Virus record (IMG/VR): IMGVR_UViG_3300023174_002962
Coordinates: 1 to 20,252 of that record
DNA: 20,252 nucleotides
Strand: one strand, 5' to 3'
Source: a virus
Part shown: in pieces, positions 738-9,909 of the stretch
Position numbering within the stretch: the first letter of the stretch is position 1
Layout: each line of letters opens with the position of its first letter
Program-made: the position numbers and the translations under genes
The notes under the pieces: model-generated
Seen by the model: the letters and a program-made list of their open reading frames with translations, nothing else
What the model was told of the DNA's origin: nothing
Database searches by the model: none

Positions 738-766
738 ATTATACGACTATATTATTAAAAGGTCAA
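738..766 (-). promoter_or_regulatory. sigma-70 promoter for uvdE (TTGACC-17-TATAAT)
   Basis: On the minus strand TTGACC (761-766) and TATAAT (738-743) are separated by exactly 17 bp. The -35 box contains the TGA stop codon (763-765) of the upstream amidinotransferase gene. The -10 box ends 6 bp before the uvdE ATG, so the expected transcription start is at or beside the A of the ATG. One of six -35 bases differs from consensus. Confidence 0.75.
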
Positions 767-1680
767 CGAGATTGACGATTTAGGTCCAATGTTACACAAT
801 GAAATCCGCCGCCCAATGTTCGGCTGTGGCGCAGTTCCAACGGTATCACTTCAAATCGGTAACTCTTTAGTGTTTTGATCAATTCGGTTTGGTGTCGGTC
901 CACAATCACAGTGTTTGGATCCACTGTGAGCATGTTCATTGCTATCCATTTTGAAGCATAAGGATATTGGTAAAAGTCCTGCGGAACCACTTCGTTTACC
1001 CAAATTTTCTGCCAGCCATCAAACACTCGTGGCACGGTATCAAACCCAACTCTGCTACCGTTTAACATGACTACACCTTCACGCAAGGCCACAATGGTCG
1101 AGTCAATGTGTACGCCAGCATAAAAATTACACAGTTCTATTTCAACATCTGGGAATTGGTCACACAGCCAATTGTAAGCGGCACGGTTGCCTGATGCTGA
1201 TTCCAAGAACAACATTTTGTCGTTGAGTCTTAACACATTAGCGGCGTCCAATGTCATGCCTTCGTGACGAGGCATGAATAGATAGTTTTCAGCTTCGTCC
1301 ACAACATCATGATAACATTGCAATTCCATGTCTCTACAAGGATACATCATGGCAGGATTCACTATGGTTGACCCATACACCAGCAACCTATCACGTGGGC
1401 AATAATTGTACATGCCATCGTGGGCTTGAAAATTAAGTGGATCTGGACGTATGACTTCTACACCCAGGCTTGTTAGTGTGTTTGCCAACGCATCCAAGTC
1501 TTCATTGGCTTCGTCAATTATGCGTTGTGGCACAGGTCCACGTGGAACGGGTGTTTCTTTCCAAGTGGTCTTTTCTGACTCTTGAGAAAACACTGGATCA
1601 TTGACTGGCCAGTTAGCGTTGGTGGCGCTTCCCACAATTATTCTCTTGAGTGGGCTCCACTCGTTAACTGAACTAATCAT
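763..1680 (-). CDS. Amidinotransferase (glycine/inosamine amidinotransferase-like), 305 aa
   Basis: Members of this family transfer the amidino group of arginine to an amine acceptor such as glycine or an aminocyclitol phosphate. The catalytic triad of the arginine:glycine amidinotransferase fold can be read: Asp145 in LDAANVLR, His191 in GVHIDST and the nucleophile Cys295 in GGGFHCVTLD near the C-terminus. A CPRD segment at 94-97 replaces the usual PRD strand. The frame is open further upstream, but I chose the ATG at 1680 because it overlaps the stop of the preceding oxygenase gene as ATGA, and because the protein from there starts like the family (SVNEWSPLKRIIVG). The acceptor substrate cannot be told from sequence. 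The gene sits third in a dehydrogenase-oxygenase-amidinotransferase run, so a joint pathway on a sugar or amine is plausible but unproven. Confidence 0.85.
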   Translation of the reverse strand: MISSVNEWSPLKRIIVGSATNANWPVNDPVFSQESEKTTWKETPVPRGPVPQRIIDEANEDLDALANTLTSLGVEVIRPDPLNFQAHDGMYNYCPRDRLLVYGSTIVNPAMMYPCRDMELQCYHDVVDEAENYLFMPRHEGMTLDAANVLRLNDKMLFLESASGNRAAYNWLCDQFPDVEIELCNFYAGVHIDSTIVALREGVVMLNGSRVGFDTVPRVFDGWQKIWVNEVVPQDFYQYPYASKWIAMNMLTVDPNTVIVDRHQTELIKTLKSYRFEVIPLELRHSRTLGGGFHCVTLDLNRQSR

Positions 1681-2180
1681 ACGTGTCCTGTAATTTGTAG
1701 TGTGTATCTTGGTTGTGATCCGCAGTTGGCGGCCATGTGTGGCGTGTCGTACTGCCACTCTACTGTGTCTCCTGCTCGCCAGTTTACCATTGGTTGATCT
1801 TCGTATTCGCCGTAGTGCCCAGGTTTCCAGTCTTCAAGGAATACTACTGCTCGTCTAATATTTTGTTCCTGGCCTTGCAGTTTAAACAGTTCAATATATT
1901 TGACATAGAGATCTTGATGAGTAGGAAGGATTGTGCCCGAATTCATTCTGTAGTAGCTGGTGCCTACGTCTTTCCAACCCATTTCTTCATAAATTTTTAC
2001 AAATTGTTTATTCCAACTGGGTTGTACTGATCGCATGTCGCACATGTCGCCAGTGAATTTGTTGGCAAATCCTTGGCCTTGCCAGAGTTCTAGATTTTTT
2101 GGATCATTGAATGTTTCATTGATATACAATAGCTGTTTAAACTCATCATCCCAAAATTTTGGAATGTGATATTTAAGCAT
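1677..2180 (-). CDS. 2-oxoglutarate/Fe(II)-dependent oxygenase-like protein, 167 aa
   Basis: The double-stranded beta-helix signature of Fe(II)/2-oxoglutarate hydroxylases is visible: HQD at 88-90 gives the HxD pair, His148 in TPHMAANCG gives the distal iron ligand, and Arg158 in PRYTLQITG fits the 2-oxoglutarate contact. The spacing and the short length resemble aspartyl/asparaginyl beta-hydroxylase-like and other small phage oxygenases. The frame can be extended to a TTG at 2210, but I prefer the ATG at 2180, which overlaps the stop of the upstream dehydrogenase by 8 nt and begins with MLKYHIPKFW, a typical oxygenase start. No good Shine-Dalgarno is seen, so translation is probably coupled to the upstream gene. 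The substrate is unknown; the position between a sugar-nucleotide dehydrogenase and an amidinotransferase suggests small-molecule modification. The family call is fairly secure, the reaction is not. Confidence 0.72.
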   Translation of the reverse strand: MLKYHIPKFWDDEFKQLLYINETFNDPKNLELWQGQGFANKFTGDMCDMRSVQPSWNKQFVKIYEEMGWKDVGTSYYRMNSGTILPTHQDLYVKYIELFKLQGQEQNIRRAVVFLEDWKPGHYGEYEDQPMVNWRAGDTVEWQYDTPHMAANCGSQPRYTLQITGHV

Positions 2181-3414
2181 GTCTAGTGTTACCGTAATGC
2201 ACCACTTCAACGTCGTCAGTGGATTCTAACTTGCGCCATGGATCAACAATTATACTACCAGGCAAAATGTCACAGTAGGGTTTGGTGTCAGCTTGATCGC
2301 CTGTGTACTCATATGTGATTTTGCGATTGTGTGCCCACAAAAAGATTGCAGATTCATCAATAGTCTCAACAACTTTATCTTGATTGTCAGCCAAGGGATC
2401 AACATAAACAACTGATCGGCCTTCCATTTCAACATAATGCCCAACCAAGGTTGAGTATGAACCAATGCAGTATTCTACGTCGGGCTTGTAGGCCTTGCCG
2501 TGAATCACAATGGGCATGTTGTCATTCATTACACTCAAGTCAACTAGGAACAGTGCAAGGTTCTTGGCTTGAATTTCCCTAGCATGCATCACTGTATCAA
2601 ACAAGTCATACCCAATGTTGTATTCCTTGGCCAACCAACGCAGAGCAATGTTATCACGTGGATGACAAGCACCTGCATCACCCATACCTGCTGTCATGTA
2701 CTTGGGTCCCATGATACGCATGGTTGAACGTGCAAGAGCGTTTGTAACAACGTCAACATTGATGTTGCCAATTCGCATGGCAAAGTCTTGTACCATGTTC
2801 ACCAGTCCAACTTTGGCTGAAATAAATGTGTTGTAGAAGATCTTGATGGCTTCGCATTCGTCCCAGGTGCCAATTTCATAACGTGGATCATTTTGCATCA
2901 CTGTGTCATACAGGTCACGAAGTTCTCCAGCTAGAGCGTTGGGGTTACCATCTTCAGTACCAATCATGATCATTTCAGGATTGACCATGTCCCATTTAAC
3001 TGAGCCCATGGCAATAAGGTAAGGGTTGTACAAGAACTGGTGCTTGGCATCCAACAACGGAACAAAGTGCTTGCGAGTGGTGCCTGGCAATACTGTACTG
3101 ATCAATACAACCTTCTTTGAGCTGGTTGCGTATTTGTTAACGTTCTTGATGGCGTCAATCACAGCCGCATGCCCAAAGTCTCGGGGTTCCATGTGCGAGC
3201 TTGGCACTGATCCATCATACCCTTCGGCATGCGGTGTTGGCACAGCAATAAAAATCCATTCGCTTTCGTTGACCAGTTCGTCAATATCGCAGACTTTTAC
3301 ACTGTCACTAGTACGTGGGTAAATATCGTAGCCTCTGACTTCATGTTTCTCTGCCATGACTTCAGCGCAGTCCAGTCCCAACTTACCAATTCCAATAAAA
3401 CCAATTTTTTTCAT
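2173..3414 (-). CDS. UDP-glucose/GDP-mannose dehydrogenase family protein, 413 aa
   Basis: This family makes uronic acids by NAD-dependent four-electron oxidation of a UDP- or GDP-sugar. The N-terminal Rossmann motif GIGKLG (8-13), the strand IAVPTP (56-61), STVLPGTT (106-113), the Lys/Asn pair in AIKIFYNT (K191, N195) and the catalytic Cys250 in GACHPRD are all present; the usual GGxCxPKD appears here as AGACHPRD. A C-terminal substrate domain with HGKAYKPD follows. Length fits the family. The frame is open upstream to 3474, but the ATG at 3414 has AAAGGA seven bases before it and starts with the canonical MKKIGFIGIG. A TTGCAA-18-TATAAT promoter lies just upstream. It heads a three-gene run with 8- and 4-nt overlaps. 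Which sugar it oxidises cannot be told; the product could feed capsule-like, glycan or nucleotide-sugar chemistry. Confidence 0.88.
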   Translation of the reverse strand: MKKIGFIGIGKLGLDCAEVMAEKHEVRGYDIYPRTSDSVKVCDIDELVNESEWIFIAVPTPHAEGYDGSVPSSHMEPRDFGHAAVIDAIKNVNKYATSSKKVVLISTVLPGTTRKHFVPLLDAKHQFLYNPYLIAMGSVKWDMVNPEMIMIGTEDGNPNALAGELRDLYDTVMQNDPRYEIGTWDECEAIKIFYNTFISAKVGLVNMVQDFAMRIGNINVDVVTNALARSTMRIMGPKYMTAGMGDAGACHPRDNIALRWLAKEYNIGYDLFDTVMHAREIQAKNLALFLVDLSVMNDNMPIVIHGKAYKPDVEYCIGSYSTLVGHYVEMEGRSVVYVDPLADNQDKVVETIDESAIFLWAHNRKITYEYTGDQADTKPYCDILPGSIIVDPWRKLESTDDVEVVHYGNTRHA

Positions 3415-4753
3415 GAGTGTTCCTTTAGATAGATTATACAATTTTTTGCAGAGTCTTTGCAACCGAGATATCATAATTTATCGCTGGACGCCACATGGCT
3501 CAAGAAATTTAGGCGATCTAAGCCCGTTAACTCACGCTGAAGTTTTTAGCAAACCAAACATTCTGGTGACTACTCCTCCAATGATTTGTCATGATCAAGA
3601 GCCTTTAAATTTTGATTACTGGACTCAAAATGATTTTGTAACCTATTCTATGGACAAATTTCTTGAGTCAGAATCAGTTGCTAGGCAGTTTGCCCATTGG
3701 CATTTGCGGTCTGCATTACAATTCAGGCACAAAGCACATGTGTTTAAAAATACGTTGTTGTGTCATTCAGAACTCAACAGCAAAGAACTAGACAAATACA
3801 CACAAAATAACTTCACTGGAGTTTACTACTGGGCCCATGCATTGATTGCTAGAGATTGGTTTAGATTTGCTCAACTGGATCAAGATCTAAAACAAAAAAA
3901 TGTTCAATCTGATTTTTTAATTTATAACAGAGCCTGGAGTGGTACTAGAGAGTATCGTTTGAAGTTTGCAGAACTTTTGGTAAAAAGCAATTTACATCAT
4001 CACTGTCAGATGGGATTTAATGACGCTGATGGCATTCACTACAGCGACCACAAGTTTAACAATCCTGCCATGCAAGTTTGTGGCACGGATCTTGACAAAT
4101 ACTTCAACAAAAATAATTCCTTGCCAACCGCCAGTGCAGACTATTGCACTCGGGACTATCAACAAACAGCAATTGAAGTTGTGTTAGAAACACTGTTTGA
4201 TGACAGTCGGTTACATCTCACTGAAAAGTCCCTGCGCCCAATTGCTTGTGGACAACCTTTTATATTGGCAGCAACTGCTGGTAGTCTTGCATATCTTCGA
4301 AGCTACGGGTTTAAGACATTTAGCTCAGTGTTTGACGAATCGTATGATACCATCAGTGATCCAGTAGAACGCCTTGGTGCCATAATCAATCTCATGAACA
4401 ATATCAAGAACAGCCCAAACCGTTTGGAAATGTATCAACAGTTACAAGCTATTGCTGACTTCAACCAACAACGATTTTTTAGTGCTGAGTTCCATCAACA
4501 AGTTGTAGAGGAATTTAAACAAAACTTTGCTAACGGATTTGACAAAGTTTTAAAAAGTTGCACACCAAAATACATGGAACAATATCTTGATGCCATAAGA
4601 TCCTGCCAGGACTATGATCTTGTTGCTCCTAAAGAGCATGTTGCAAATCTCAATGCTTTAGAAAAATACGTTTATGATTTTATAGATCAGACAACGAGCG
4701 AGCTAGACAACCATTCCAATCTTCCGGCGGCGGAGTCTGTTCGTAGTCAGTGA
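3413..4753 (+). CDS. Uncharacterised phage protein with glycosyltransferase-like C-terminal motif, 446 aa
   Basis: I do not recognise a named family with certainty. A soluble protein without signal peptide or membrane segment. Its N-terminal part carries IIYRWTPHGSRN (20-31) and CHDQEPLNF (59-67). The best landmark is LHLTEKSLRPIACGQPFI (268-284 region, E271 and K272) followed by LRSYGFKTF and DESYD; a Thr-Glu-Lys stretch before a Gly-x-Pro-Phe-Ile strand occurs in nucleotide-sugar glycosyltransferases, so such a role is an inference. Codon by codon it is continuous and AT-rich. The ATG at 3413 has no Shine-Dalgarno and lies in a CATG shared with the divergent dehydrogenase start; the conserved-looking IIYRW stretch at residue 20 argues against a much later start. 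Its last 74 bp overlap the 3' end of a minus-strand gene. It is one of only two plus-strand genes. Confidence 0.65.
   Translation: MSVPLDRLYNFLQSLCNRDIIIYRWTPHGSRNLGDLSPLTHAEVFSKPNILVTTPPMICHDQEPLNFDYWTQNDFVTYSMDKFLESESVARQFAHWHLRSALQFRHKAHVFKNTLLCHSELNSKELDKYTQNNFTGVYYWAHALIARDWFRFAQLDQDLKQKNVQSDFLIYNRAWSGTREYRLKFAELLVKSNLHHHCQMGFNDADGIHYSDHKFNNPAMQVCGTDLDKYFNKNNSLPTASADYCTRDYQQTAIEVVLETLFDDSRLHLTEKSLRPIACGQPFILAATAGSLAYLRSYGFKTFSSVFDESYDTISDPVERLGAIINLMNNIKNSPNRLEMYQQLQAIADFNQQRFFSAEFHQQVVEEFKQNFANGFDKVLKSCTPKYMEQYLDAIRSCQDYDLVAPKEHVANLNALEKYVYDFIDQTTSELDNHSNLPAAESVRSQ
3433..3462 (-). promoter_or_regulatory. sigma-70-like promoter for the dehydrogenase operon (TTGCAA-18-TATAAT)
   Basis: On the minus strand TTGCAA (3457-3462) is followed after 18 bp by a perfect TATAAT (3433-3438). 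The expected start near 3426 leaves a short leader that includes the AAAGGA ribosome site of the dehydrogenase gene. The promoter lies inside the first codons of the divergent plus-strand gene if that gene starts at 3413. Confidence 0.58.
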
Positions 4754-5063: not shown

Positions 5064-5852
5064 ATGAAAGTTGCTTTTGACCTAATTTCTGATCTCCACA
5101 TTGACACCTGGAACGAACCCTTTGACTGGACTGATCGAGCCACCAGTCCATACGCTATTGTTGCCGGCGACATTGCCGAAGATAGAAAATTATTATCTGA
5201 TGCGTTGACCAATCTAAGTCGCTGTTATCAAGCTGTGTTTTTTATAGACGGCAATGACGAACATGCTAGATATTATCACAGTCTTAGCGACAGCTACAAA
5301 GACCTAACCAAACGCATTGCTAAAATATCTAATGTGGTTTATCTCCAGGACAATGTGGTAGTAGTTGACGGTGTTGGCATTTTGGGCACCAATGGATGGT
5401 GGGGATTTGATTTTGAACTCAGTATTGATCCTACTCAAAGTTCTTTGTGGTGGCAAGAAAAAGAAAATCTCACCAGTGACATTGCAAAAAAGATATCCAG
5501 GATGGCCACCAATGATGCGGCGTACATGATAAACTCTGTGAAACGCCTGCAATCACACAAGGATGTCAAACACATACTCATGGTCACACATACTGTGCCT
5601 TGTCAACAGTTGATTGAGCATGACATAGACCTCGAAGGCAGCATGCGGTTCAACATGATGGGCAACAGAGACATGATGCAGGCTTTGGCCGCAGACGACG
5701 GGAAAAAGATTCATACCTGGTGTTTTGGACACTATCATGGATCAGTAGACCAAATACGCCACGACGTGAGATTTGTGAACAACTGTCGTGGGCGCAGTGG
5801 TTCACCATGGTCACATCATGTGTACCATCCTCGTAGAATTGAAATTCAGTGA
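5064..5852 (+). CDS. Calcineurin-like metallophosphoesterase, 262 aa
   Basis: All five metal-binding blocks of the calcineurin-like phosphoesterase superfamily are in order: DLH with D10 and H12, GD at 35-36, GNDEH at 63-67, THT with H176, and GHYH at 222-225. The rest of the protein fits a two-metal single-domain enzyme. Substrate could be a phosphomonoester, a cyclic nucleotide or a nucleic acid end; sequence alone does not decide this. It is one of two plus-strand genes. There is no clear ribosome site before the ATG at 5064, but a TATAAT on the plus strand at 5028-5033, with only a weak -35, could start a short transcript. The stop codon overlaps the end of the convergent clpS gene by 7 bp. 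Confidence 0.88.
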   Translation: MKVAFDLISDLHIDTWNEPFDWTDRATSPYAIVAGDIAEDRKLLSDALTNLSRCYQAVFFIDGNDEHARYYHSLSDSYKDLTKRIAKISNVVYLQDNVVVVDGVGILGTNGWWGFDFELSIDPTQSSLWWQEKENLTSDIAKKISRMATNDAAYMINSVKRLQSHKDVKHILMVTHTVPCQQLIEHDIDLEGSMRFNMMGNRDMMQALAADDGKKIHTWCFGHYHGSVDQIRHDVRFVNNCRGRSGSPWSHHVYHPRRIEIQ

Positions 5853-6157
5853 ACTTCTTCTGGTTCTAATTTGATTTGTAATGGGTAGCTTTGTGAGCGA
5901 GCTTGCAAGGTAACTTCGATGCCTTTTTGTTCGGCAATCTCATAAGGTAGCACAGCAACCACAGCACTTCCAGCTTCGTGAATGTCAACTGTGATCTGTT
6001 CAGCAGATTCTGCGGTATAATCAAAATACTCAACCAAACTACTGACCACAAATTCCATAGTGGTTTGATTGTCATTGATGTAGATCACGCGAAACAACGA
6101 CGGTGGTCGCACTGCTTCTTGTGTGCGGGTTCGTGATTTCGTTTCAGTTTGAGCCAT
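5846..6157 (-). CDS. clpS: ClpS-like adaptor protein for Clp protease, 103 aa
   Basis: ClpS delivers proteins with destabilising N-terminal residues (N-degrons) to ClpAP-type proteases. The core from residue 18 on follows bacterial ClpS: PPSLFRVIYINDN, TTMEFVVSSL, and DIHEAG, with the substrate-pocket residues N28, D29, T32, M34 and H60 matching N34, D35, T38, M40 and H66 of the E. coli protein. One pocket-edge residue differs: E. coli D36 is N30 here. The N-terminal tail (1-17) is polar and extended, as in bacterial ClpS, where it acts in substrate handover. The ATG at 6157 has AAGGA upstream. It is the last gene of a series containing hsp20, bS21 and clpX. No clpA or clpP is in the window, so it presumably works with host ClpA/ClpP, or has shifted to another partner. 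Confidence 0.88.
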   Translation of the reverse strand: MAQTETKSRTRTQEAVRPPSLFRVIYINDNQTTMEFVVSSLVEYFDYTAESAEQITVDIHEAGSAVVAVLPYEIAEQKGIEVTLQARSQSYPLQIKLEPEEVH

Positions 6158-6173
6158 TTTTTATCCTTGTTAG

Positions 6174-6198
6174 CAGTGGCAGCACCGTGCTGCCACTG
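6174..6198 (-). promoter_or_regulatory. Perfect hairpin in the clpS leader
   Basis: A 25-nt inverted repeat reads the same on both arms (CAGTGGCAGCA paired with TGCTGCCACTG, 11 bp, loop of three). It sits between the hsp20 stop and the clpS ribosome site. No run of T follows on either strand, so it is a poor intrinsic terminator. With the predicted start near 6202 it would lie at the very 5' end of a clpS mRNA, where such hairpins protect RNA; it could also be an RNase processing site. Confidence 0.7.
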
Positions 6199-6208
6199 TA
6201 TTTACACA

Positions 6209-6237
6209 ATTATATTAGTTTGTGTAGGTGATCGCAA
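6209..6237 (-). promoter_or_regulatory. Possible sigma-70 promoter for clpS (TTGCGA-17-TATAAT)
   Basis: TTGCGA (6232-6237) and TATAAT (6209-6214) are spaced by 17 bp on the minus strand, at the 3' end of hsp20. The -35 box matches consensus at four of six positions. It would start transcription just before the clpS leader hairpin. Confidence 0.45.
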
Positions 6238-6673
6238 TAGTCTTTGGCTTGGCATCTTCGGGCACTTCACGTTTCAAGTGAACGCTTAGAATACCAAGTT
6301 CAAGATGTGCATTACTGATCTCTACGTGATCAGCCAACTGAAATTCCCTGCGGAAACTTCTTTCGCTGATACCTTTGTGCAAATATTTTGCTGTAACATC
6401 CTCATTCTCCACAGTCTCACGACTGTGTTTACCTTCAATAATCAAGAACTTTTTGTCCTTGGTTACTGTGAGGTTATCATGTCCAAAGCCAGCCACAGCC
6501 ATGCTGATCATGTACTCATCTTCATTGATTTGTACAATGTCATAAGGTGGATAGTTGGTAGAGGATTGCTGAGCACTCACACGCATGAGTTCATCAAACA
6601 TGTTATCAAAACCGATACCAAATTTGGTGAGTGTGGGAATGTCGAAACTACGAAGGGTGAGAGTTTTTGTCAT
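6215..6673 (-). CDS. hsp20: Small heat-shock protein, Hsp20/alpha-crystallin family, 152 aa
   Basis: Small heat-shock proteins hold unfolded proteins in oligomers until other chaperones act. The alpha-crystallin domain spans about residues 42-150: YDIVQINEDEYMISMAVAGF, KYLHKGISERSFRREFQL and the conserved A-x-L-x-x-G-I-L strand (AHLELGILSVHL) followed by a C-terminal Ile-x-Ile (IAI), which docks dimers. Length is normal for a bacterial-type Hsp20. The ATG at 6673 has AAGGAG seven bases upstream. T4-like phages of aquatic bacteria often carry hsp20. The leader holds two hairpins, one covering the ribosome site, with a pattern like ROSE RNA thermometers. It lies between the 75-aa gene and clpS, in a group of protein-handling genes. 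Confidence 0.93.
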   Translation of the reverse strand: MTKTLTLRSFDIPTLTKFGIGFDNMFDELMRVSAQQSSTNYPPYDIVQINEDEYMISMAVAGFGHDNLTVTKDKKFLIIEGKHSRETVENEDVTAKYLHKGISERSFRREFQLADHVEISNAHLELGILSVHLKREVPEDAKPKTIAITYTN

Positions 6674-6734
6674 TTGTTTTCTCCTTTATATAAGCAAGAT
6701 GACTTGTAATGTAGCCCCACTATGGGCACTACAA
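6674..6734 (-). promoter_or_regulatory. hsp20 leader with possible ROSE-like RNA thermometer
   Basis: Two hairpins fill the 61 nt before the hsp20 ATG. The upstream one (6704-6734) closes with TTGTA/TACAA and has an inner GCCC/GGGC stem. The downstream one (6681-6698 on the minus strand reads CTTGCTTATATAAAGGAG) puts TTGCT opposite the ribosome site AAGGAG. TTGCT opposite the Shine-Dalgarno, with an opposed G-G, is the hallmark of ROSE thermometers, which precede many bacterial small heat-shock genes. A TATAAT at 6743-6748 could start the RNA near 6736, but no good -35 precedes it. The thermometer is an inference from short motifs. Confidence 0.45.
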
Positions 6735-6760
6735 CATTATTTATTATACACGAAGAAAAA

Positions 6761-6988
6761 TTATATTTTATTATTTAGGTCAGTTACCAAGCGGTAAGTT
6801 GTCCATTCTGGATGTTCTGGGTGTGGCACCCAGGTCATTGCAAATAGTGTGTAAGATTCGTCTGAATCAAATGTAACCCGCAAGGTGTATTTGAATACTT
6901 TAGTGCGGTATTTGATATTGTATTTTACTGCCCATGCATTCAGTTTGTTTCGAACTAAGTCTGAGGACAACTGGAACTCAATGTACAT
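6761..6988 (-). CDS. Uncharacterised small protein, 75 aa
   Basis: I do not recognise a functional family. The protein is a small alpha/beta polypeptide, beginning MYIEFQLSSDLVRNKL and ending LVTDLNNKI, with tryptophans at 19, 53 and 62 and a proline-rich turn (VPHPEHPEW). Its ATG shares one base with the stop codon of the bS21 gene (TGATG), so translation should be re-initiated by ribosomes that just finished bS21. The tight coupling suggests that the two products are wanted together. An 87-bp gap to hsp20 follows. Confidence 0.72.
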   Translation of the reverse strand: MYIEFQLSSDLVRNKLNAWAVKYNIKYRTKVFKYTLRVTFDSDESYTLFAMTWVPHPEHPEWTTYRLVTDLNNKI

Positions 6989-7212
6989 CAGTACAGTTTT
7001 TTAGGTAGTGCTTGCTCGGCTATTTGTTTGCGCCAGCGATTTTTAGCGGCACTGCGTTTGAGTTTGCGAGCAGTAGTGGGCTTGATGTAATGCTCTTTTT
7101 CACGTAGATCATTGAGTATGTTCGACGCTTGAATTTTTTTCTTGAGTTTTCTCAGCGCACGTTCAACATTGTTGTCCTGAACCAACACTGATCTACCATG
7201 TAATTTACCCAT
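6988..7212 (-). CDS. rpsU: Ribosomal protein bS21, 74 aa
   Basis: bS21 sits in the 30S subunit near the anti-Shine-Dalgarno end of 16S rRNA and takes part in initiation. The N-terminal VLVQDNNVERALRKLKKKI, the KEHYIKP segment and the basic tail (TTARKLKRSAAKNRWRK) follow the bacterial protein, and the length (74 aa against about 71 in E. coli) agrees. bS21 is the ribosomal protein most often found in phage genomes, where it is thought to replace the host copy and favour phage mRNAs. The ATG overlaps the clpX stop by 8 nt; a GAGGAG within the clpX end and an AAAG stretch lie upstream. It is followed directly by a 75-aa gene through TGATG. Confidence 0.92.
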   Translation of the reverse strand: MGKLHGRSVLVQDNNVERALRKLKKKIQASNILNDLREKEHYIKPTTARKLKRSAAKNRWRKQIAEQALPKKLY

Positions 7213-8410
7213 TGACTTTCTTTAACTCCTCGGGAGTATTTACCATGTTTTCGTCAATTTCTACATGTGTTATGTTTTGTTTGCTGTACTCGCCTAGCTT
7301 GTACATGTGTGGCAGTAGCACACGTTCCAGTTCACTGTGTAATCCACGAGCACCAGTTTTGTTCTTGATGGTATTGTCAGCGATTTGAACCAGTGCCTCT
7401 GGGGTAAAATCCAACACAATCTTGTCTTGGTCAAACAGCCATTTGTACTGTTCTATATAACTGTGTTTGATATCAATCAATATCCTAATGAGATCATCTC
7501 TAGTTAAATCTTGCAATGCTACCCAGGTTGGGAAACGACCAACAAATTCTGGAATCATACCAAAGCGAATCAAATCGTCGGGTGTGACTTGGTCTAGGTG
7601 CATTGTAGTATCCGAGTTTACTTTGGCACCAAACCCTATGCTAGTTCCACGCACTCGACTTTTTACAATGTTATCCAGGCCCACAAATGCACCGCCGGCA
7701 ATAAACAAGATGTTAGTGGTGTCAATTTCAACTGTTTCACCTGATGGATGTTTGCGCCCACCTTGTGGCACAATACGACATTTGGTTCCTTCTACTAATT
7801 TAAGTAGAGCCTGTTGCACCCCTTCACCCGACACATCTCTTGTGATAGATGCCGATTCTGAACGACGGGAAATTTTATCAACTTCATCTAGAAACACAAT
7901 GCCACGTTGGCATCGATCAACGTCATTACCAGCAGCCGCAAACAATCTAGAAATTAAACTTTCTACGTCATCGCCAACATAGCCTGCTTCAGTAAGACTG
8001 GTGGCGTCAGCAATCACAAACGGCACATCAAGATATCGTGCTACCGATCGTGCCAATAGAGTTTTTCCTGAACCTGTGGGCCCAAGCATGAGAATGTTGA
8101 CTTTTTCAATTTCGGTATTTTTGTCACGATTGTTAATGCGTTTGTAATGATTGGCAATTGCTACGCTTAACACAATCTTGGCTTGATCTTGACCAATTAC
8201 ATATTGATCAAGATGTGCTTTGATCTCGATTGGATTTAACGTAGGGGATGTTTTTGTTTCTTTAACTATCAGTTCTTCTTTGAGAAGAGTTTCACATAAA
8301 TCCACACATTCATTGCAAATTGCAACACCTTCGCCCACAATTAGTTTGGCCACTGCGTCTTTGTGTTTGTTACAAAAACTGCAGGTGTCGATGGTTTCAG
8401 TCTGTTTCAT
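7205..8410 (-). CDS. clpX: ClpX-like AAA+ unfoldase subunit, 401 aa
   Basis: ClpX unfolds tagged proteins and feeds them to ClpP. The protein has the whole bacterial layout: an N-terminal four-cysteine zinc domain (C10, C13, C32, C35), Walker A GPTGSGKT at 110-117, the GYVG pore loop at 143-146, Walker B with IVFLDE at 171-176, the RKH loop at 219-221, arginine finger R292 in EFVGRFP, and sensor 2 GARGL at 353-357. The IGF loop that docks on ClpP is intact at 258-260, so it could work with the host ClpP. At 401 residues it is about 20 shorter than the E. coli protein, mostly in the linkers. The ATG overlaps the stop of the upstream membrane protein gene as ATGA. ClpX in a phage genome could redirect host proteolysis or remodel phage complexes. 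Confidence 0.94.
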   Translation of the reverse strand: MKQTETIDTCSFCNKHKDAVAKLIVGEGVAICNECVDLCETLLKEELIVKETKTSPTLNPIEIKAHLDQYVIGQDQAKIVLSVAIANHYKRINNRDKNTEIEKVNILMLGPTGSGKTLLARSVARYLDVPFVIADATSLTEAGYVGDDVESLISRLFAAAGNDVDRCQRGIVFLDEVDKISRRSESASITRDVSGEGVQQALLKLVEGTKCRIVPQGGRKHPSGETVEIDTTNILFIAGGAFVGLDNIVKSRVRGTSIGFGAKVNSDTTMHLDQVTPDDLIRFGMIPEFVGRFPTWVALQDLTRDDLIRILIDIKHSYIEQYKWLFDQDKIVLDFTPEALVQIADNTIKNKTGARGLHSELERVLLPHMYKLGEYSKQNITHVEIDENMVNTPEELKKVNG

Positions 8411-9909
8411 AAGTTATTGGTTTGTTTAAGACGTTCTGCAACTTGTTCACGTTCAATGTCACTCAACAAGTCCGGATCATATTCACCGGTTGCAATTTTG
8501 TCAATGAGGTGATCAATGTATGCTGTATCGTAAGTATAGTTATCTGTAGAATTTTTGTCAATAATAATCCACTCGTTACCATTGAATTTGTAAACCTTAC
8601 TGGGCAATTGATCTACTCTAACAAAAGTATCGCCTTTTGAAGGACTGTCAGGGAATCGTATTCCAAAGCTGGAGTTTGATTCTCTAGGTTGATCATTGTC
8701 AGACACCAACTTCATCCAAGGCAACTCGTCAATTTCTCCACGATACAATTTACGTCTTTCTTCCTTGAGTGTTCGATCAGGGTTTGCAGTTTTCCAGGCT
8801 TTGACTGCCGCCTTAACGTTTGCAGGCTCTTCTTCTTGATCAAAACTAGGCATATCTACAAACACTGGCGAGCTTGGTGTTTCAGGTTGTGTAAAACTAA
8901 TTGTGGTGCCAGAAGTAGAGTCAAACACATCACACTCTTTGTTTGGACAAAAAAGACCTATTCCAGGAGCATCTAGTAGTTCTGTGCCACACTTGTAGCA
9001 ATTGATTGGATCGGGTTTGTCAAACATCCAACCTGGCGGATGCGGATCCTTGGGCGGTTCTGCACTGGCTTGAATCTGTTCTATTTGGTCTTCAGTGAGT
9101 GGCCCATCATCAGGTTCATACTTGGGCTCGTCATGCACAAAGCCACCTGTGCCTTGTCGTGCCCATTCAAACTGTTTGTTGGCGGCTAGAATAAGTGTGA
9201 GAGCAAGTGGATCAAACACCAACACAATCATTATGATCATCCAACGCACTGCACGTTCTAACAGATTGGAATCAGGATTGTCTCCGTAAAGCAAGGCCGC
9301 AATGTATTTGATTGGTCCTACTTCTGCTTCAACCTTGCGTACCTCTGCGGCAATCGGCGCACGTTCTTCGCTAATGGCGGCAACAGTTTTCTGTTCGGCC
9401 GTGATCTCGGATTGAAGTCTTGCTCGTTCTTTCTGCTGTGAGCGACGGATTTGCACCGCCTTATCCGCACCTTTTTCATCACTGCTTCGGCCCATAACTT
9501 GGTCCACAGCTTCATCCATTTGTTTAAGCGCCTTCCGGTTCGCATCTATATTATCCTTGGCTGTTTTAATCTTTTCATCGTAGATGGCAATTTTACTTTG
9601 CACATCACCCGACACCAGACTTTGATCCGAGTGTGCCTTTGACAAGTAGCCAAAGATTCCCATGCTGGTCAGTATCATTAGGAATGCTATGGCTGGTATC
9701 AAATACAGTTTGAACACAATACCAGCCCGCCGCCAGTTGTTGTGCAACCATACAGTGGCAACAATTTTGCCCAGCTCTAGCGAACCACCCATGATGATCA
9801 CGGGTATTGTGGCCGCTGAGAATATAGCAGTAAGGCCTGCCACTGAATAGTAGGCAGCTACGGCGCTTAAGAGTAATGCGGTGGCGAGAATTCCAAGTCC
9901 AAATATCAT
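8407..9909 (-). CDS. Membrane protein with coiled coil and zinc ribbon, 500 aa
   Basis: I do not recognise a named function. The order of parts is clear: three hydrophobic segments (about 4-24, 27-46 and 64-88), a long charged helical stretch likely to form a coiled coil (about 100-195), a fourth membrane segment (about 221-243), an acidic proline-rich linker, a zinc-ribbon-like CxxC...CxxxxC (C304, C307, C321, C326), a short WKTANPD segment and a C-terminal acidic tail. The GGSLELGK stretch at 41-48 sits between hydrophobic segments. With both a membrane anchor and a cytoplasmic zinc domain it could link phage functions to the host inner membrane, which is an inference. The ATG at 9909 follows the 106-aa gene after 5 bp. 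Its stop overlaps the clpX start by 4 nt, so the two products are translationally coupled. Confidence 0.83.
   Translation of the reverse strand: MIFGLGILATALLLSAVAAYYSVAGLTAIFSAATIPVIIMGGSLELGKIVATVWLHNNWRRAGIVFKLYLIPAIAFLMILTSMGIFGYLSKAHSDQSLVSGDVQSKIAIYDEKIKTAKDNIDANRKALKQMDEAVDQVMGRSSDEKGADKAVQIRRSQQKERARLQSEITAEQKTVAAISEERAPIAAEVRKVEAEVGPIKYIAALLYGDNPDSNLLERAVRWMIIMIVLVFDPLALTLILAANKQFEWARQGTGGFVHDEPKYEPDDGPLTEDQIEQIQASAEPPKDPHPPGWMFDKPDPINCYKCGTELLDAPGIGLFCPNKECDVFDSTSGTTISFTQPETPSSPVFVDMPSFDQEEEPANVKAAVKAWKTANPDRTLKEERRKLYRGEIDELPWMKLVSDNDQPRESNSSFGIRFPDSPSKGDTFVRVDQLPSKVYKFNGNEWIIIDKNSTDNYTYDTAYIDHLIDKIATGEYDPDLLSDIEREQVAERLKQTNNL

Follow-up and report, generated by a model that had tools for sequence, protein, structure and literature searches.

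Phages that encode components of the bacterial Clp proteolytic system raise the question of whose protease these proteins serve, that of the host or one of their own. The virus record IMGVR_UViG_3300023174_002962 (20,252 bases, called the window below) carries the unfoldase gene clpX, the ribosomal protein gene bS21, the small heat-shock gene hsp20 and the N-degron adaptor gene clpS side by side. An earlier note, made from the letters of the window alone, described these genes as a one-strand cluster for proteolysis, chaperoning and translation, and proposed that the phage ClpX uses host ClpP and that ClpS forms a new adaptor pairing with ClpX. The cluster stands, as open reading frames (ORFs), Pfam scores and coordinates agree and the gene order is conserved in relatives. 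Dependence on host ClpP is not supported, since relatives encode ClpP proteins of their own, mostly two, plus a full ClpA. The best explanation, built on observed gene content, gene order, protein motifs, leader conservation and paired changes in the leader RNA, is a self-contained phage heat-shock and Clp-protease module of which the window is one end, a reading to which a probability of roughly 0.7 is assigned.

All four genes lie on the minus strand, and each product scores above its own Pfam cut-off in a profile search of the window ORFs. The features of the module (protein lengths in amino acids, aa) are:

7205..8410, minus strand: clpX, 401 aa, with a zinc-binding domain (53.8 bits), an AAA+ domain (AAA_2, 107 bits) and an IGF loop.
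6988..7212, minus strand: bS21 ribosomal protein gene, 74 aa (PF01165, 62.5 bits, cut-off 27).
6761..6988, minus strand: orf75, 75 aa, between bS21 and hsp20, with a predicted beta-alpha-beta-beta-alpha-beta fold (mean predicted local distance difference test score, pLDDT, 90.8).
6671..6735, minus strand: ROSE-like 5' leader of hsp20, a 5' hairpin with a bulged G followed by UUGCU facing the AAGGAG Shine-Dalgarno sequence.
6215..6673, minus strand: hsp20 small heat-shock protein gene, 152 aa (PF00011, 59.5 bits, cut-off 20.8; phrog_432, 134 bits).
6174..6198, minus strand: conserved hairpin of the clpS leader, directly following a promoter-like site, TTGCGA-17-TATAAT (6237-6209).
5846..6157, minus strand: clpS N-degron adaptor gene, 103 aa (PF02617, 81.4 bits, cut-off 23).

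By their coordinates, end-to-start overlaps link orf500 (the gene upstream of clpX), clpX, bS21 and orf75, followed by a gap of 87 bases to hsp20 and 57 more to clpS. The ClpX of the window has the C4 zinc motif, GPTGSGKT, DEVDK, GYVG and IGFG, and the zinc, pore, Walker and IGF motifs that had been ascribed to it are all present. IMG/VR searches returned at least 593 relatives with the ClpS query and 167 with the ClpX query, and the best 80 of each were kept as loci; the two sets have contigs in common and do not represent 160 independent cases. ClpX and ClpS are encoded on one strand in 78 of the 80 ClpS-found loci and 73 of the 80 ClpX-found loci, a clustering that is not due to chance. In six of the nine misses (L030, L056, L084, L087, L088 and L104) the contig is truncated within the module or at its edge, and in two others (L116 and L139) it ends inside an inserted dnaK or just after groESL. 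In the last (L137, 11416-12279), 864 bases run past bS21 to the contig end, and no hsp20, clpS, dnaK or groESL was recognised there. Where both ClpX and ClpS occur, bS21 is present in 63/78 and 60/73 loci, respectively. The ClpX motifs are retained among 99 distinct sequences, the window's included (zinc motif in 98, Walker B-like in 99, GYVG in 99, RKH in 79 and IGF in 88); a loose Walker A pattern is found in 98 and the exact GPTGSGKT in 79.

Neither clpA nor clpP is among the window ORFs examined, as had been observed before, which says nothing of the rest of the genome; relatives carry both genes downstream, and the absence is therefore read as an artefact of a 20-kb fragment. When the search was extended beyond the window, as the earlier note had suggested, clpP was found in 22 of 23 long relatives (two copies in 20) and the ClpA N-domain in 13. 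The 23 records do not count as fully independent, because coordinates coincide in G002 and G003, and G008 resembles G009. The sister record G002 (364 kb) matches the window piecewise at 79-91% identity; it has clpA and two clpP genes downstream on the same strand, and a DnaJ gene adjoins clpA. Across the long relatives, clpP lies 7.5-27 kb and clpA 54-100 kb downstream of clpS, always on the clpS strand. The sole record in which clpP is missing extends 8 kb downstream; clpA is found in all 12 records that reach 100 kb or more beyond clpS, and the ten records without it have at most 84 kb.

These downstream genes encode recognisable Clp proteins. The sister ClpA has the family layout of an N-domain, two AAA modules and a ClpP-docking loop, and its best PDB match is E. 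coli ClpA (592 bits, versus 485 for ClpB). An IGF loop is present in 12/12 ClpA sequences (G002 and 11 others, the duplicate G003 left out), and the Ser-His-Asp triad in 20/20 ClpP1 and 18/18 ClpP2 sequences (duplicates G003 and G009 left out). Residues Y62 and F82 are kept in all 20 ClpP1 sequences, and ClpP2 has M62 in 18/18, S82 or A82 in 18/18, and no R15; we take Y62 and F82 to be docking residues and R15 to belong to the axial loop. From its residues the protease set looks complete and uneven. In a tree of ClpA, three cellular sequences group together with full support apart from 14 phage sequences, and three are too few to date the gain.

The adaptor itself points to ClpA. The ClpS of the window aligns without gaps to E. 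coli ClpS, keeping N34, D35, T38, M40, H66, E79 and K84 and differing by D36N and M62T; the previous description of a pocket kept save for D36N was right about the kept residues and about that change, and left M62T unmentioned. Its predicted structure (mean pLDDT 82) matches E. coli and Caulobacter ClpS in Foldseek with E near 1e-9. Among 91 distinct ClpS sequences, N34, D35, T38, H66, E79 and K84 are invariant; position 36 carries N in 82, S in 8 and D in a single sequence, and position 62 carries T in 90 and A in the remaining one. The gatekeeper M40 is variable (M 61, Y 17, V 7, others 6). Both D36 and M62 are kept in E. coli ClpS and in 7/7 other cellular ClpS compared, a small set. Presumably N34 and H66 form the alpha-amino clamp and E79 and K84 are the ClpA-docking residues. 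The clade ClpS keeps a usable N-degron clamp, probably with a changed preference; D36N and M62T are no bar to membership of the ClpS family and bear on specificity. Elsewhere, the ClpS proteins of PA5oct, Paride, Phosso and SCTP-2 keep both N34 and H66, that of Vibrio 2.275.O has lost H66, and those of RaK2, CBB, Munch and Kaldavass have lost N34. Both residues are lost in the ClpS of Atu_ph07 (MF403008.1 486271-486573, L258), which may no longer bind N-degrons.

The distribution of these genes among 13 named phages is consistent with the same partner. The phages are related, and their counts are not independent; Vibrio 2.275.O is represented by a partial genome and Lak-B1 by a metagenome assembly. 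ClpP was found in 13, ClpS in 10, Clp_N in 8, the ClpX zinc finger in 6, S21 in 6 and Hsp20 in 5, and ClpA in Phosso and SCTP-2 was found by tblastn. The six phages picked for ClpA (RaK2, CBB, Munch, Vibrio 2.275.O, SCTP-2 and Kaldavass) have ClpS in 6/6 and the ClpX zinc finger in 0/6, in a scan keyed on that finger, which a ClpX without a zinc domain would escape. ClpX is present in phages G and Lak-B1, where ClpS gave no match. All 12 phage records with a ClpS match also match ClpA (PA5oct counted twice); two bacterial-looking records, set aside from the original 14, match ClpA too. S21 adjoins clpS in SCTP-2 and Vibrio 2.275.O, both of which are without the ClpX zinc finger. In named phages ClpS thus tracks ClpA rather than ClpX, and a ClpS-ClpX pairing is not supported.

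The RNA leaders of hsp20 were absent from the earlier account and were found in this analysis. Upstream of hsp20 in relatives, a TATAAT-like box is followed by a hairpin and then by UUGCU and AAGGAG. The arrangement UUGCU-N2-14-AGGA-N4-10-start occurs in 92 of 97 distinct hsp20 regions, as against 4/95 for clpS, 1/98 for orf500 and none for six other genes. A bulged-G hairpin is present in 76 of 80 distinct motif-bearing leaders, and its paired positions change together. Pairs were counted outward from the bulge to the first mismatch, so that full pairing is by construction; the evidence for the hairpin is carried by a letter-shuffle control (0.06 of 80) and an arm-dealing control (0.71 paired on average, 0.78 at most). 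A previous parser without the bulged G, which placed a stem in 65/82 leaders, mostly the wrong ones, was replaced by this bulge-allowing count. Model R1, built from 32 leaders (alignment A5) with the window leader part of the training, scores 69.6 bits at window positions 6672-6735, and its search of the sister (364 kb, 19 pieces) at E up to 0.1 returns the hsp20 leader and nothing else. UUGCU or UCGCU opposite AGGA, with a conserved hairpin upstream, is the layout of ROSE_3 (RF02523), and the hsp20 leaders show it. The hsp20 leader resembles a ROSE RNA thermometer, and thermosensing, like proteolysis by the module, is predicted.

Similar leaders accompany other chaperone genes. In some relatives, Hsp70 (866 bits, L029), Cpn60 (263 bits) and Cpn10 (110 bits, L141) are inserted between bS21 or orf75 and hsp20 (e.g., L018 7538-9421 and L141 11610-13531). 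DnaK occurs in 16 loci, which fall into 10 unrelated contig groups, and GroEL in 12 loci, likewise in 10 groups; in L130 GroEL lies away from hsp20. Matches of model R1 outside its training end at the dnaK start in L018, L029, L043 and L127; in L138, L141 and L149 they lie 105-140 bases upstream of groES, before a tiny ORF, and groES has its own promoter-like sequence by eye. The clpS leader has a stem of 8-14 base pairs (bp) in 83/83 distinct gaps, as against a mean of 10.45 of 83 shuffled gaps that reach 7 bp. The promoter-like site of clpS scores 10 of 12, with 19 such sites found versus 11.8 expected. The sequence TATAAATA precedes hsp20 in 9/84 and orf500 in 3/87 distinct regions, versus 0.6 and 0.2 in shuffles that preserved single-letter composition only, and these matches are read as putative promoter -10 regions. 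For T4-like late promoter boxes, the window has 10 near-matches versus 14.7 expected.

From these components we infer the following complexes, substrates, heat opening and timing. The window would supply ClpX, ClpS, Hsp20 and bS21; relatives suggest that the set is completed by two ClpPs about 20 kb downstream and, about 80 kb downstream, by ClpA together with DnaJ. ClpS would take destabilising N-terminal residues in its retuned pocket and pass the proteins that bear them to the N-domain of the phage ClpA, and ClpA and ClpX would dock onto ClpP1 via their IGF loops. ClpP2, which has the triad and no docking pocket, probably forms the ring that does not dock in a mixed ClpP1P2 particle, the unfoldases sitting on the ClpP1 face. 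Hsp20, together with DnaK or GroESL in relatives, would hold or refold the remaining proteins. Translation of hsp20 is probably gated, with UUGCU masking the Shine-Dalgarno sequence until heat opens the leader, and bS21 would bias initiation toward phage mRNAs. It is a fair possibility, though somewhat less likely than not, that these phages own a heat-shock regulon in which ROSE-type leaders control hsp20 and, in relatives, dnaK and possibly groESL, and feed a complete ClpXP/ClpAPS system with retuned N-degron specificity. If so, proteostasis in the infected cell would run on phage genes, and the regulon may help the related phages Paride, Cassandra, Deifobo and Ettore to replicate, as few phages can, in deep-dormant cells.

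Several observations weigh against a self-contained, heat-responsive module. The window record itself is without clpA and clpP, and for the window species both genes are judged from relatives. Ten of the 23 long relatives have no clpA; four of them (G005, G009, G013 and G018) have 60-84 kb downstream of clpS, within the observed range, and these four neither support nor exclude the reading. Since bS21 is absent from some loci, it is not essential to the module. As far as the 23 long records reach, no Leu/Phe transferase, peptide deformylase or FtsH was found. A self-made N-degron route and an FtsH like that of PA5oct were both rejected on these grounds, and any N-degrons must therefore derive from host enzymes or from cleavage.

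The same caution extends to the leader. Five hsp20 regions do not have the motif: in the near sister L002 AAGAAG replaces AAGGAG, L140 has UUCGU, L056 is a cut contig, and the other two are L067 and L148. RNAalifold on a MAFFT alignment recovers three pairs only, because short inserts shift the arms, and model R1 rests mainly on sequence as a result. No Rfam family reaches its threshold in the window, and ROSE_3 was matched below its cut-off of 43 in 2 of 11 sources searched, at 31.6 bits in L138 (the leader upstream of groES in a dnaJ-less groESL arrangement) and 25.4 bits in L136. UUGCU pairs with AGGA in 71 of 82 computed leader folds at 20 C and in 67 at 37 C, a small drop, and the predicted opening of the Shine-Dalgarno sequence, computed for 40 of 70 leaders, is 0.17 at 5 C and still no more than 0.29 at 42 C.

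That the phage ClpX takes over host ClpP, with ClpS as a new ClpX adaptor, is very improbable. This proposal is favoured by the synteny of clpS and clpX in the window clade and in PA5oct, but the relatives have a clpP and a clpA of their own, on which dependence on host ClpP was rejected. The pairing was rejected on co-occurrence in named phages, where six have ClpS without the ClpX zinc finger and G and Lak-B1 have the reverse, and the ClpA-docking residues E79 and K84 are unchanged in 91/91 sequences. ClpS generally docks ClpA N-domains, and the phage protein might thus mainly reprogram host ClpA, sparing or redirecting host proteolysis, a role compatible with a self-contained module. Delivery to host ClpAP has been proposed in part of a jumbo-phage survey (PMC7824862). 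However, a phage ClpA N-domain accompanies clpS in every long record with at least 100 kb downstream, and host ClpA is rather unlikely to be the chief target. We know of no assembly role for an N-degron adaptor, and this counts against the suggestion that the Clp genes serve virion assembly, with ClpP1 or ClpP2 as the head maturation protease and ClpX or ClpA as assembly chaperones. In the Paride record clpP is indeed annotated as a head maturation protease, and two papers suggest that phage Clp proteins act in assembly (PMC6102473, PMC7824862). In G002, however, about 133-135 kb separate the clpP pair from the major capsid gene, and ClpP1 keeps its unfoldase-docking residues, so that an assembly function is distinctly unlikely.

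The leader of hsp20 might also be a structured mRNA stabiliser or a protein-binding site rather than a thermometer. Hairpins precede clpS in every gap compared, where the UUGCU-AGGA motif is rare, the computed response to temperature is weak, and the match in the window is to freshwater-2 RNA (23 bits, below the cut-off of 49.9) rather than to ROSE. Yet UUGCU/AGGA together with a GAUGCC/GGGUC hairpin is the ROSE_3 layout and stands ahead of heat-shock genes, and the stabiliser or binding-site alternative, which deserves serious attention, is on balance doubted.

The genes that flank the module are also conserved:

8407..9909, minus strand: orf500, overlapping clpX, with a membrane-type N-terminus by eye and weak Pfam matches only (DUF4407, E 0.007).
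5064..5852, plus strand: metallophosphoesterase-like gene (phrog_1649, 94 bits), convergent with clpS and touching it.

A homologue of orf500 is found in 79/80 ClpX-found loci, and its product is possibly a membrane-linked partner of ClpX; the metallophosphoesterase-like gene is found in 80/80 ClpS-found loci. For orf75 there is no Pfam match at E <= 1, and in fold searches no PDB match with E <= 0.001 and one match at E <= 0.001 in the viral library, an uncharacterised protein of an uncultured phage. Host prediction from bS21 was uninformative (16 loci, 32-53% identity, mostly part-length, 8/16 alphaproteobacterial by title). Genes for ribonucleotide reductase, DNA ligase, glutaredoxin and PAAR near the module are consistent with a large phage. 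Near the left end of the window (763-3474) lie amidinotransferase-like and oxygenase-like genes, recognised by eye, and a UDP-sugar dehydrogenase gene (PF00984, PF03721).

The capsid protein of G002 belongs to the T4 Gp23 family (326 bits). Compared with the fetched parts of PA5oct, it is 65.6% identical in capsid and 48.6% in portal, and the tail and replication genes lie in collinear blocks. These similarities mark the window as a piece of a jumbo myophage with PA5oct and Paride among its relatives. G002 also carries a CsgG curli-secretion gene (131494-132318, or L179 11494-12318; PF03783, 177 bits) followed by a repeat-rich ORF; CsgG genes about 47% identical are found in Methylophilales phage Melnitz and pelagiphage HTVC008M.

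Phages were already known to carry Hsp20, bS21 and individual Clp proteins, and Atu_ph07 most of the Clp set. The jumbo-phage survey names ClpP, ClpS, ClpA, ClpX and Hsp20 separately (PMC7824862). Published work describes bS21 as common in aquatic phages, with one such protein leaving E. coli ribosomes about 5% of their activity in vitro (PMC6375957), and places it, in another lake phage group, in the capsid region with a link to late expression (PMC9723584). In the open-licence literature no paper on the module as a unit was found, in a search that did not extend to phage ROSE elements. The present analysis adds one conserved unit across a large lineage of uncultured jumbo phages, a complete-looking but uneven ClpP1/ClpP2 protease, an adaptor pocket altered alike throughout the lineage, and ROSE-like leaders on phage heat-shock genes.

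The closest known systems are those of the Pseudomonas phages PA5oct and Paride (Arenbergviridae, Wroclawvirus), in which clpX, S21, two ORFs, hsp20 and clpS are followed by clpP and clpA on one strand, with the same type of hsp20 leader; the baseplate genes of PA5oct are also related to those of the window lineage. These phages differ in having one clpP, module proteins 30-49% identical to those of the window lineage and no dnaK or groESL annotated between S21 and hsp20, and FtsH is annotated in PA5oct. Paride, which has this same gene order, was isolated on P. aeruginosa PAO1. The paper that describes it reports replication in deep-dormant cells and repeated attempts at isolation that yielded only close relatives, and no word beginning with Clp was counted in it (PMC10761892). 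The module is a candidate for a part in this dormant-cell replication, a link inferred from one lineage.

In Atu_ph07 (Agrobacterium) and Phosso (Sinorhizobium), clpX, S21, hsp20 and clpS keep the same order and direction but are spread out, with thymidine kinase between hsp20 and clpS and IF-3 after clpX; clpA is present in both. The order in Atu_ph07 spans the ends of a circular record, in which S21 is annotated as hypothetical and was recognised by family search, and its ClpS differs in being without N34 and H66. Sections of the Atu_ph07 report list ClpX, ClpA, ClpB, ClpP and ClpS and place dnaJ near clpA (gp292 and gp293) (PMC6102473). In Phosso dnaJ is likewise near clpA, with a deformylase between them, and its ClpP is 48% identical to ClpP2. 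Sinorhizobium phage AP-J-162, known from published text, is described there as having six Clp-like ORFs, with clpX near IF-3, S21, Hsp20 and DnaJ, and ClpS and ClpA are not named in the extract (PMC11242549).

Beyond phages, the E. coli ClpS-ClpAP pathway shares the ClpS fold, N34/H66 and E79/K84, the ClpA architecture and docking loop, and the ClpP triad. The phage lineage differs from it in the D36N/M62T pocket, in having two ClpPs of which one is without a docking pocket, in the absence of Leu/Phe transferase from the 23 records, and in that clpS is not beside clpA. ROSE_3 shares with the phage leaders the GAUGCC/GGGUC hairpin with a bulged G and, ahead of a small heat-shock gene, UUGCU (UCGCU in Phosso) facing AGGA; the phage leaders score below the Rfam cut-off, and differ in occurring in phages and in standing also ahead of dnaK.

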